DNA of 64,000 nucleotides. Source: Actinomycetota bacterium (GTDB lineage Bacteria; Actinomycetota; Actinomycetes; Nanopelagicales; Nanopelagicaceae). A program made the translations under genes and the position numbers. Positions 23,438 to 27,469 of the stretch are shown piece after piece. Each line of letters begins with the position of its first letter. Position 1 is the first letter of the stretch. The stretch lies in NCBI GenBank assembly GCA_947449535.1, contig CANFRP010000004.1:1-64000 (forward strand), read 5' to 3'. The notes below the pieces were generated by a model. The model was not told the origin of the DNA. It saw only the letters and a program-made list of their open reading frames with translations, and ran no database searches.

Positions 23438-24628
23438 CTAACCTAACTTATTGAGGGCGAGATCGAGAAGTTGATCTGCCAGTGTGTCCTTAGATATATC
23501 CATCACATCCCAGTGATTTCCTGCACTATCAAGAATAGTTCCAGAAGTTATCTCACTATTGAAGATCGCTCCCCCGCTGACATCATTGCAGAAAAGCAAA
23601 TCCAGGCCCTTTACTGACAATTTCTTTCGAGCACGATCAATTGCGTTAGCGCCCGTTTCTGCGGCAAACCCGATAACTACCTGATGAGCGCTCTTTACAC
23701 GAACTAATTCATGAACAATATCTGGATTTCGTATCAGCTCAATTCGCTGCAGATCTTCTTTCCCAATCTTAACTTCCCCAACAACAGATGGGCGGGCATC
23801 TGCAACTGCCGCTGCCATTACGAGCAGGTCACAATTTGCAAATTCTTCAGTTAGCGCCGATTGCATCTCCATCGCTGATTTCACATGAATAATACGAACA
23901 CCATCTAAATCCGGTAATTGCACATTGGCGCTCACAAGAGTTACTGACGCACCTCGGCTTGCTGCAGCACTCGCGATTGAATATCCCTGCTTTCCGGATG
24001 AGTTATTCCCGATGTAGCGAACTGGATCTATCGCCTCTCGGGTTCCCCCTGCGCTGATCAGAACGCGCTTGCCGGCATAATCAGAACTGGCACCTAAAAC
24101 TTCTTGAATGCTGCTCAGAATTCGCGCTGTTTCTGGGAATCGGCCAACCCCCGAATCCTCACCAGTAAGTCTGCCTGTGTCGGGTTCAATGATATGAACA
24201 CCGCGAGATTTGAGCAGTGCAACATTTGCCTGCGTCGCCGGATTGAGCCACATCTCCGGATGCATCGCAGGAACCAGAATTAGCGGAGCAGGTGAGGCTA
24301 TTACTGTATTAGTCAGCAAATCATCGGCTCGACCTTGGGCAATGCGCGCAAGCAGGTCAGCAGTCGTCGGCGCAATCACAATCGCAGCAGCTTTCTTAGC
24401 GAGGGCGATATGCGGAACGCTATGAACATTGCTCCACAAATCCTCGTGGACTTCACGAGAGGAGAGCGCCTCCCAGGTTGCTTTGCCGACAAAGTTCAAA
24501 CTCGAGCGAGTGGGAATCACTGTGACGAGAAAGCCGGAGTCTCTCAATCTGCGAAGTAGATCAGCAGATTTGTATGCAGCAATGCCCCCGCCGATACCGA
24601 GAATAATCTCTCGATTACGGGGAGGCAT
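23438..24628 (-). CDS. coaBC: Bifunctional phosphopantothenoylcysteine decarboxylase/synthetase
   Basis: Two consecutive steps of coenzyme A synthesis. 396 residues: an N-terminal FMN-dependent decarboxylase ([18 protein letters not shown], the catalytic histidine in [19 protein letters not shown] substrate region) and a C-terminal CTP-dependent synthetase ([35 protein letters not shown], lysine-rich clamp in [17 protein letters not shown]). Both catalytic regions look intact. Follows rpoZ by 21 bases in the conserved gmk-rpoZ-coaBC-metK-priA order. Confidence 0.97.
23440..23445 (-). promoter_or_regulatory. Putative -10 element for leaderless metK
   Basis: Minus-strand TAGGTT overlaps the end of coaBC and ends six bases before the metK ATG at 23433. 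Confidence 0.45.
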
Positions 24629-24649
24629 GATCTGAATTCTTGGGTGTTA

Positions 24650-24922
24650 TTAAGCTGTTGGTTCAGCGCTCTTTGGTTCGAGATTTTCGATAGTAAGTAG
24701 ACCATCGTTGATCTCGCGAAGAGCGATCGAGAGTGGCTTCTCGTGAACATATGTCTCAACTAGTGGACCTACGTATTCCAGGAGACCTTCACCTAACTGT
24801 GAGTAGTAAGCATTTATTTGACGTGCGCGCTTAGCTGCATACAGAACGAGGCTGTACTTCGAGCCCGCCTTGTCGAGGAGAGCGTCGATTGGTGGATTTG
24901 TGATGCCATCCATTGATGTCAT
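24650..24922 (-). CDS. rpoZ: RNA polymerase omega subunit
   Basis: 90 residues; assists assembly of RNA polymerase around beta-prime. Typical actinobacterial omega: [37 protein letters not shown] with the conserved ARQIN helix, then [19 protein letters not shown] about seven bases before the ATG is a good ribosome binding site. It sits between the mIHF-gmk fusion and coaBC. Confidence 0.96.
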
Positions 24923-24955
24923 GAAATGCCCCTAATTCTCAAATCAAACGGAAAA

Positions 24956-25843
24956 TTACTTCTTACTTTGATGCGAAGTGGCCAAGGATAGCAGGGATTG
25001 GGCGACCGCCTCGACTTGGGTATTTACCAAGGTATGGTCGAACTCCCCCGCAGCAGCCATCTCCTCCTGCGCTAACGCTAAGCGGGCAGCGCGACGTTCT
25101 GGGGAATCCGTGCCCCTATTAGTCAATCGAGCGACTAATTCTTCCCATGATGGTGGAGCTATAAAAACCAGCAATGCATCGGGCTCGGCTCTTCGAACTT
25201 GTCTCGCCCCTGCGATCTCAATTTCGAGAAGAACATGTCTCCCTAAGTTACGCCAATCATCAACTGGCTCCTTAGGCGTTCCATAGCGATTCCCAGCGAA
25301 CTCTGCCCATTCGAGAAATTCATTATTTCCGATCATTGCATCGAAACGCTCATCAGTGATGAAAAAATAATCATGACCATCCCGCTCGCCATGGCGCGGA
25401 GTTCGAGTAGTAGCTGAGATACTCACCCACACTGAGGGATGATCTCGAAGGACTGATGTGATCGTACTTTTGCCCACACCACCCGGTCCAGACATGACGA
25501 TCAGTGCGCCTGGGGTAACGCCCTGCTTTATCACTAGTAACTCCTTGCGAAGGGCGGCCAATTGTTTGGGGCCGAGACCCTGAATTCTACGCGATGGTGA
25601 TATTCCGATTTTACCCATGATGAGGAAGCAACGCCTTGCGCCAATTCCCGGCACGGCCTGTAACAATTCAGCAACTCTCATTCTTTGAATTGACTCACGC
25701 CCATCATTTATAGCATCAAAGAAGGAGCACTTAGCGCTCTCAATCTCCTTCTTGATTGCAGCACGTTCCTGTCGAGCGATTACTCCTTTAGCTCCCGCGG
25801 CGCGCCTAGTCTCATCTGAAAGACGTGGAGGTTGGTTCTGCAT
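24956..25843 (-). CDS. gmk: Fusion of mycobacterial-type integration host factor (mIHF) and guanylate kinase
   Basis: One uninterrupted 295-residue frame with two parts. Residues about 1-105 look like mIHF, the actinobacterial nucleoid protein: [22 protein letters not shown], then [22 protein letters not shown] and [19 protein letters not shown], covering the helix-two-turn-helix-type DNA-binding region. Residues about 112-295 are guanylate kinase (GMP to GDP): P-loop [10 protein letters not shown] with Lys125, [17 protein letters not shown] and the [14 protein letters not shown]-binding segments. In other actinobacteria mihF and gmk are adjacent separate genes. Start ATG 25843 is one base past the pyrF stop; an earlier in-frame ATG at 25876 would overlap pyrF. 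Confidence 0.93.
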
Positions 25844-25844
25844 T

Positions 25845-26543
25845 TTAGAGCGAATCGAGAATCTTGGCCGCGGCATCTGACATCGCCATAGGTGATGTCG
25901 TCCAATGTTGCGAGATAGGTCGACCGATTACCAAGAAATTCGCCCCTGCTGCAATGGCATCGGCAGGAGTCATTACCCGTTTTTGATCACCTAAGTCAGC
26001 ACCCACGGGACGGACTCCAGGGGTAATCAGCTCAACTTCATCCGCAACTACATTTCGAATTGCCCCGACCTCGAAAGGTGAACAGACAACCGAACGCGCA
26101 CCTTTTGTTGTCGCTAACTTTGCCAAAGCAACTGCTGATTCCAAAGCGTTATGCGAATAACCAATCTCAAAGAGATCTTTCTCTGATAGCGAAGTAAGGA
26201 TTGTTACGGCAGTTATGGAAATTTTCGGGGCGGCAGCAGCTGCCGCGGCAACCATCTCTCCTCCACCACTTGCGTGAATAGTCAGAAATCTTGGATTAAT
26301 TTGCTCAACCGAACCGACCGCACCTGCTACCGTATTTGGAATATCATGCAATTTAAGATCAAGAAAAAGATCGAAATCCCCGGCCTCGCGAAGAGTGGAA
26401 ATGCCCGCTTCTCCGAATTTCAGAAAGAATTCAAGGCCGACTTTGTAGGTTGAGATTGATGATCGAGTGCATTCAATCCAACTCTTTGCGGTATTGAGAT
26501 CCTTAGTGTCTAACGCCAATATAATTGGTGATTTCATGCTCAC
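25845..26543 (-). CDS. pyrF: Orotidine 5'-phosphate decarboxylase
   Basis: Last step of UMP synthesis. 232 residues, with the catalytic [11 protein letters not shown] motif (Lys-Asp-x-x-x-Asp-type) and [19 protein letters not shown] phosphate loop. This is the short, type 1-like form. Many actinobacteria (mycobacteria, streptomycetes) carry the longer type 2 form, so the type should be checked against relatives. GTG start overlaps the pyrD stop (GTGA); ATG at 26537 is an alternative. Confidence 0.95.
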
Positions 26544-27469
26544 TCCGCCCTGTGGGCATATCCCACTGCCTCATGCAAACTATTAAATCCCTTTGCGACC
26601 AATAGATTCTGCAACTCACTCTTCACTTTCATAACCGCTGTTGGATTGCCGAAAGTTGCTGTACCTACTGAGACTGCAGATGCCCCGGCAAGAATCAATT
26701 GGAGCGCATCATTACCGTTTGTGACACCGCCCATTCCCAAAATACGCACGTGCGGGAGCCGAGCATGAACTTGATAAATGGCGCGAACCGCAATGGGACG
26801 GATAGCTGGACCAGATAATCCGCCAGTCTTTCCGGCAAGTCGTGGTCGCAATGTCTCAGTATCAATCACCATTCCAAGAACTGTATTGATCAGCGCTAAA
26901 GAATCTGCGCCCGCTGATACAACTTCTTCTGCAATTGCTGAAATATCTGTGACATCCGGAGTTAATTTCGCAATTATCGGAAGTTCTCCTCCGATATTTC
27001 GGCGCACCGCCTCAATTGCTGCCCGAGCCGTTACTGGATCGCAAGCAAAAACTTGGCCCCGATTCTCCACATTGGGACAGGAGATATTAACTTCTAGAGC
27101 TGAAATTCCAGATACCGATCGCATCTTTCTGGCGAGGACAGCGTAATCATCTACGCTTTCCCCGGCGATGCTGACGACGATTTTGGCTCCTTGCGATATC
27201 AGCCATGGAACATCATTCTCAAGAAAGATATCGATACCGGGTCCTTGTAAACCGATGGAGTTGAGCATTCCGGAAGGAGTTTCGGCCATCCGCGGCGTAG
27301 CACGGCCAGACCGTGCCTTGACCATGATCGACTTTGTGACGACTGCTCCCAATTCCGTTAAAGGAAAAAATTGCGCGAGCTCCTTACCTGAACCAGCACA
27401 ACCACTTGCTGTAAAAATTGGGTTATCAAAGCGCGCTTGGCCTAAAGAAGTGCTGAAATCAAATGTCAT
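26540..27469 (-). CDS. pyrD: Dihydroorotate dehydrogenase, class 1B catalytic subunit
   Basis: Oxidises dihydroorotate to orotate with FMN. 309 residues. NPIFTASGCAGSGKEL, the active-site cysteine in VNISCPNVENRG (class 1 uses Cys where quinone-linked class 2 uses Ser), and IIAKLTPDVTDI and GMGGVTNGNDAL FMN loops. Cysteine plus the adjacent pyrK subunit identifies a soluble NAD-linked class 1B heterotetramer. ATG at 27469 overlaps the pyrK TGA by one base; an earlier start would overlap more. Confidence 0.96.
   Translation of the reverse strand: MTFDFSTSLGQARFDNPIFTASGCAGSGKELAQFFPLTELGAVVTKSIMVKARSGRATPRMAETPSGMLNSIGLQGPGIDIFLENDVPWLISQGAKIVVSIAGESVDDYAVLARKMRSVSGISALEVNISCPNVENRGQVFACDPVTARAAIEAVRRNIGGELPIIAKLTPDVTDISAIAEEVVSAGADSLALINTVLGMVIDTETLRPRLAGKTGGLSGPAIRPIAVRAIYQVHARLPHVRILGMGGVTNGNDALQLILAGASAVSVGTATFGNPTAVMKVKSELQNLLVAKGFNSLHEAVGYAHRAE

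Follow-up and report, generated by a model that had tools for sequence, protein, structure and literature searches.

Can two genes that have become a single reading frame still deliver two proteins? The question is raised by a gene in the window (the whole stretch of 64,000 nucleotides analyzed here) that joins mIHF, in mycobacteria an abundant and essential DNA-binding protein (PMC6155035), to guanylate kinase (Gmk). The original prediction recognized the fusion from the sequence of this locus and considered it either a link between nucleotide supply and chromosome architecture or the mere outcome of a deleted stop codon; here the fused frame, its relatives and the DNA at its junction are examined together.

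The Fused Reading Frame and Its Two Domains

The fused gene mihF-gmk extends over positions 24956..25843 on the minus strand, from an ATG at 25843 to a TAA at 24956-24958, and encodes 295 amino acids; the plus strand of the same interval contains many stop codons, and the open frame exists on the minus strand only, a point that the original prediction had left unstated. Its central claim, that one open frame connects an mIHF module with a complete guanylate kinase, is borne out when each part is aligned to the appropriate profiles. Residues 6-101 (25541..25828, minus strand) match the actino_IHF model NF041260 with 85.0 bits (cut-off 60), and the H2TH core at residues 47-101 matches PF22525 with 60.5 bits (cut-off 27). 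Residues 112-288 (24980..25510, minus strand) match the guanylate kinase equivalog model TIGR03263 with 213.8 bits (cut-off 160.45), and the predicted P-loop lysine, Lys125, does sit within the motif GPGGVGKST (residues 119-127). No stop codon terminates the mIHF half, which is therefore part of a larger protein and not the stand-alone form of approximately 105 amino acids.

By sequence, the N-terminal part is nearest to the solved structure of sIHF (4ITQ) and the C-terminal part to those of guanylate kinases; comparison with the PDB found no solved chain that matches both halves. The AlphaFold model (mean pLDDT 90.5) contains two ordered domains with a weaker linker block at residues 101-110 (pLDDT 68), and the predicted placement of the mIHF and Gmk domains relative to each other is uncertain (pTM 0.70). 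The modeled kinase half has the guanylate kinase fold, and superposes on Gmk of Mycobacterium tuberculosis (1S4Q/1ZNW) with a TM score of 0.90 over the target and an rmsd of 1.7.

Genome and Operon Context

The genome is a multi-contig draft of 1.46 Mb and approximately 94% completeness, in which the fused frame is the sole mihF and the sole gmk found; a search for a second, separate mIHF or Gmk across this approximately 94% of the genome returned none, and one HU protein is encoded. Since no other gmk was found, the fused Gmk is expected to be an active kinase.

The gene order is carB-pyrK-pyrD-pyrF-(mihF-gmk)-rpoZ-coaBC-metK-priA, where pyrF and rpoZ were assigned by family models and the remaining neighbors were read from the sequence. 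Upstream, pyrF (25845..26543, minus strand) ends with a TAA one base before the fusion ATG; directly downstream lies rpoZ, the gene for the RNA polymerase omega subunit (24650..24922, minus strand; TIGR00690 above cut-off), and gmk followed by rpoZ is the usual actinobacterial order. A simple sigma-70 scan of positions 24600-26600 found no separate promoter for gmk within the mihF half. Deletion of the essential mIHF of M. tuberculosis required gmk and rpoZ in trans owing to polar effects (PMC6155035), which fits a tight co-expression of mihF, gmk, and rpoZ. A defense role for the fused gene was considered and rejected, as PADLOC gave no match.

Distribution and Phylogeny of the Fusion

The original prediction knew mihF and gmk of actinobacteria as neighboring but separate genes, treated the fusion as exceptional, and suggested a survey of the Nanopelagicales. 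This survey overturns the exceptional status: the same fusion is the rule in the Nanopelagicaceae and in the Microbacteriaceae. Of 151 sampled Nanopelagicales genomes, 149 had a match; the genes are fused in 127 of these (including two truncated at the end of a contig) and separate in 22, and the group of the order that carries the fusion is the Nanopelagicaceae/acI. The frame is also fused in the complete chromosome CP015603.1 of Actinobacteria bacterium IMCC25003, a member of tribe acI-A1 (PMC5301498).

Among 100 sampled genomes of the Microbacteriaceae (the family of Rhodoluna), 98 had a match and 89 of these carry the full-length fusion, a count that includes four in which the flagged stop is C-terminal. 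A Microbacteriaceae member with a genome of 0.93 Mb, which we presume may be Tropheryma, is also fused. Two further small genomes of this family, those of a Rhodoluna (L172, G505) and of a metagenome-assembled Microbacteriaceae member (L167, G506), were silent toward NF041260 and lacked any mIHF match over their whole length; here mIHF has apparently either disappeared or become too divergent to be recognized. A third family (f34) contributes two more fused loci (L089 and L104, genus g101), and the idea that the fusion is unique to the lineage of the window was accordingly discarded. The proteins of these two loci have the DNA-binding loop RRLGQLG or RRLGQIG and a longer linker, and represent a third, separate fusion; in another locus of the same family (L116, G406), the stretch that was read contains gmk without a recognizable adjoining mihF.

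Elsewhere in the phylum, among the matches listed, those spanning both halves contain a stop, and thus represent adjacent genes in one frame. In several relatives, mihF and gmk share a frame and are separated by a single stop, which agrees with the earlier suggestion that the fusion reflects a missing intergenic stop. Two loci of genus g7 (L061 in G122 and L062 in G125) have this arrangement, with the stop immediately followed by a start codon (TAA GTG and TAG ATG).

The tree of mIHF plus Gmk requires at least four changes between the fused and the separate state, and places the Microbacteriaceae, third-family and Nanopelagicaceae fusions apart from each other; this phylogeny indicates that the mIHF-Gmk fusion arose more than once, and that it persists. 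An unfused clade (g7, g11) is nested with moderate support among the fused Nanopelagicaceae, and may result from the later splitting of a fused gene or from a second fusion event. The fused domain arrangement is common in sequence collections; a full-text literature search, with most subscription papers outside its reach, found no published description of it.

Constraint on Both Halves and the DNA-Binding Loop

Purifying selection acts on both halves of the fused gene: across 55 pairs of closely related fused genes, the median dN/dS is approximately 0.09 (mIHF half) and 0.07 (Gmk), and the mIHF half falls to approximately 0.05 in close pairs of the window's lineage. Within the kinase half, the residues of the P-loop and those assigned to GMP binding in the guanylate kinase family (G119-T127, S143, R147, R150, Y159, E178, Y187, T189, R243, and R254) are invariant among 25 Nanopelagicaceae fusions. 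The mIHF half has invariant Ile81, Ser82, Arg85, Gly89, Gly91, and Gln94 in the same set. With curated models passed, key residues invariant and selection on both parts, the earlier statement that both halves retain their core motifs stands.

The RRxR motif of mIHF (R170, R171, and R173 in Rv1388 numbering) is said to provide the DNA-binding arginines, reportedly in a 2014 J Biol Chem paper. The corresponding loop of the window protein, SRRIQGLG (residues 84-91), retains R85 and R86 but has Q88 in place of the third arginine, and therefore departs from RRxR. All 58 fused proteins examined have Gln, Ala or Gly at this position and keep the first two basic residues, whereas Arg occupies it in 20 of 36 separate proteins. 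As a mark of fusion the substitution was nevertheless rejected as not clean, since several unfused relatives have also lost the arginine; its loss accompanies fusion without being confined to it. Shared by all 58 fused proteins and some unfused homologues, the loss does not exclude membership in the mIHF domain family, and the glutamine may weaken DNA binding by the mIHF half.

A Candidate Internal Shine-Dalgarno Sequence and Start Codon

A feature that the original prediction overlooked lies at the junction of the two halves, where the DNA reads AAGGAG TTACTA GTG (25546-25532, codons 100-104) just before the kinase. The AAGGAG (25541..25546, minus strand; codons 100-101) is a candidate Shine-Dalgarno sequence with a predicted pairing of -7.8 kcal/mol, and is followed after 6 nt by the GTG of codon 104 (25532..25534, minus strand), from which a free Gmk of 192 amino acids is predicted that ends at 24956, at the stop of the fused gene. 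The conservation of both elements argues for the production of free Gmk in addition to the fused protein.

This conservation was followed in 42 non-redundant loci of the window's lineage and its sister genera (g1, g4, g5, g9, and g14). Because this set was chosen after the junctions had been viewed, and partly by linker pattern, counts of loci are descriptive and do not amount to a blind test; the synonymous codon that is used for a given residue is independent of this choice. A start codon is present in 38 of the 42 loci (the exceptions are L024, L030, L058, and L129). At the codon three past a conserved Glu, Val is encoded by GTG in 12 of 15 cases and Leu by TTG in 16 of 17, while four loci have Met; six further loci have an ATG one codon later, five of them with Ile at the start position, plus L060. 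Within the same genes GTG makes up 0.23 of Val codons and TTG 0.24 of Leu codons, so that the biases correspond to p = 5e-6 and p = 1e-9, respectively, with loci treated as independent. The conserved Glu itself (codon 101, within the Shine-Dalgarno sequence) is GAG in 38 of 42 loci (expected fraction 0.54, p = 5e-7 on the same assumption), compared to 12 of 32 at the same Glu in other fused genes. Ranking of codon columns was used to allow for relatedness, and controls kinship only partly; by this measure codon 104 ranks first among 44 Val/Leu columns in its share of start-like codons (0.875; mean 0.235, next-highest value 0.68), and codon 101 ranks first among 12 Glu columns in its share of GAG. 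The residues that flank the internal start vary among the 42 loci.

Predicted pairing with the 16S rRNA tail follows the same pattern, with a median of -7.35 kcal/mol at the internal site compared to -2.4 kcal/mol at 525 other in-frame start-like codons (p = 3e-20, again with related sequences treated as independent) and -2.9 kcal/mol at the main start. In the window, the internal site pairs more strongly than any other of the ten starts that were checked in the operon, and the main ATG has no Shine-Dalgarno sequence (pairing +0.3). Taken by itself the window is too weak a case, as synonymous recoding equals the score of the internal site in 13% of trials; the argument for an internal start therefore rests on the comparison across relatives. 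Codon choice in these relatives indicates that the internal start signal is kept by selection beyond the amino-acid constraint.

Codon usage in the window's lineage also has a second peculiarity, near the C-terminus of Gmk: a conserved Leu at codon 287 (window positions 24983-24985, minus strand) is encoded in 41 loci by 28 TTG and 13 TTA codons and by no CTN codon.

Most fused genes of g2, g3, and the Microbacteriaceae lack a conserved internal Shine-Dalgarno sequence and start, and a few g2 loci (L047, L050, and L053) have an ATG with fair pairing near the junction. Since the gmk start of unfused relatives in the order mostly overlaps or adjoins the mihF stop, the internal start is most simply read as the old gmk start, retained after the stop was lost.

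Two Probable Products From One Gene, and Alternative Explanations

On this comparative evidence, the gene probably makes two products with a shared stop. The first would be the 295-aa mIHF-Gmk protein, with an N-terminal mIHF DNA-binding domain, a short linker and a complete guanylate kinase; the second would be a free Gmk of approximately 192 amino acids, initiated at codon 104 (GTG) behind a separate Shine-Dalgarno sequence. Ribosomes that end pyrF would reinitiate at the fusion ATG and produce mIHF-Gmk by coupled initiation, and other ribosomes, binding at the internal site, would produce free Gmk. Gmk would then occur both tethered and free, and all cellular mIHF would be born tethered to Gmk, because no stop separates the two halves.

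A simpler account would have only the 295-aa bifunctional protein made, and would regard the internal Shine-Dalgarno sequence and GTG as inert remnants of the former gmk start. The fusions of g2, g3, and the Microbacteriaceae, mostly devoid of such a start, evidently manage on the fused protein alone, and the junction stop is easily lost, since many actinobacteria have both genes in frame with a single stop between them. Yet an inert remnant should decay, and here start codons and GAG are maintained by synonymous choice in 38 of 42 loci amid varying flanks; this account is unlikely. A sequencing or assembly artifact at the junction, conceivable in a draft genome of many contigs, was rejected and has a practically negligible probability, as the same frame is open in the 127 fused genomes of the order, with the complete chromosome CP015603.1 among them. 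It is also highly improbable that the mIHF half is degenerate, has given up DNA binding and survives only as an N-terminal cap to aid the expression or stability of Gmk: the loss of the Arg173 equivalent would suit such a cap, but the dN/dS of the mIHF half within the lineage, its six invariant residues and the lack of any other mIHF found in the genome do not.

A further proposal, rather improbable as a general explanation, is that the fusion physically couples the state of the nucleoid to GMP/GDP supply, either because mIHF-DNA binding modulates or localizes the kinase, or because nucleotide state modulates DNA binding. Such coupling is compatible with the two-product model, to which it would add a regulatory function, and it draws on the repeated origin and persistence of the fusion, on the continued constraint on both halves, and on the loss of the third arginine in all fused proteins examined, a hint at altered DNA contact. 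The same arginine is lost in some unfused relatives too; moreover, in-frame adjacency of the genes offers a neutral route to fusion, the model gives no confident fixed arrangement of the domains, and any retained free Gmk would dilute the coupling. A more specific version, decidedly doubtful, would distinguish two Gmk pools, one tethered to the nucleoid with activity or location dependent on mIHF-DNA binding, the other free and derived from the internal start; lineages would have fixed different pool ratios by keeping or losing this start. If true, the supply of guanine nucleotides in these streamlined freshwater bacteria would be tied through the pool ratio to the state of the chromosome.

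Implications

In these organisms, which belong to one of the most common groups of freshwater bacteria, all mIHF appears to be produced in one piece with an enzyme that is essential for nucleotide metabolism. We consider the presence of a candidate start within the fused frame to be new, together with the series of three states among lineages: genes apart, genes fused with retention of the internal start, and genes fused without it. With this series one can ask how cells tolerate the joining of two housekeeping genes, and whether a fusion is at first made tolerable by an internal start.

Comparison With Known Systems

The N-terminal half is the same domain (NF041260) as mIHF of Mycobacterium (Rv1388) and sIHF of Streptomyces (SCO1480); the conserved proline and the RR of the DNA-binding loop are kept, and M. 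tuberculosis mIHF is located directly before gmk, as is the mIHF half here. In contrast to these proteins, the domain has no stop of its own, is always joined to Gmk, and has Gln for the third arginine of RRxR. The C-terminal half resembles Gmk (TIGR03263; M. tuberculosis Rv1389, 1S4Q/1ZNW) in its complete kinase domain, P-loop, substrate residues and fold, and differs by a 103-residue DNA-binding extension and by a predicted start codon of its own inside a longer frame. The mIHF-Gmk fusions of the Microbacteriaceae share the domain order and the full open frame, but stand apart in the tree, lack the conserved internal Shine-Dalgarno sequence and start, and have KRxGG instead of the RRxQG found here. 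Finally, pairs of products from one gene with an in-frame internal start have been described for Cas11b (PMC11899642) and for two-polypeptide phage endolysins (PMC9430671); those genes likewise combine one frame, a shared stop and a shorter C-terminal product. Here, in contrast, the second product is predicted from sequence, and the frame that would encode it unites two housekeeping genes.
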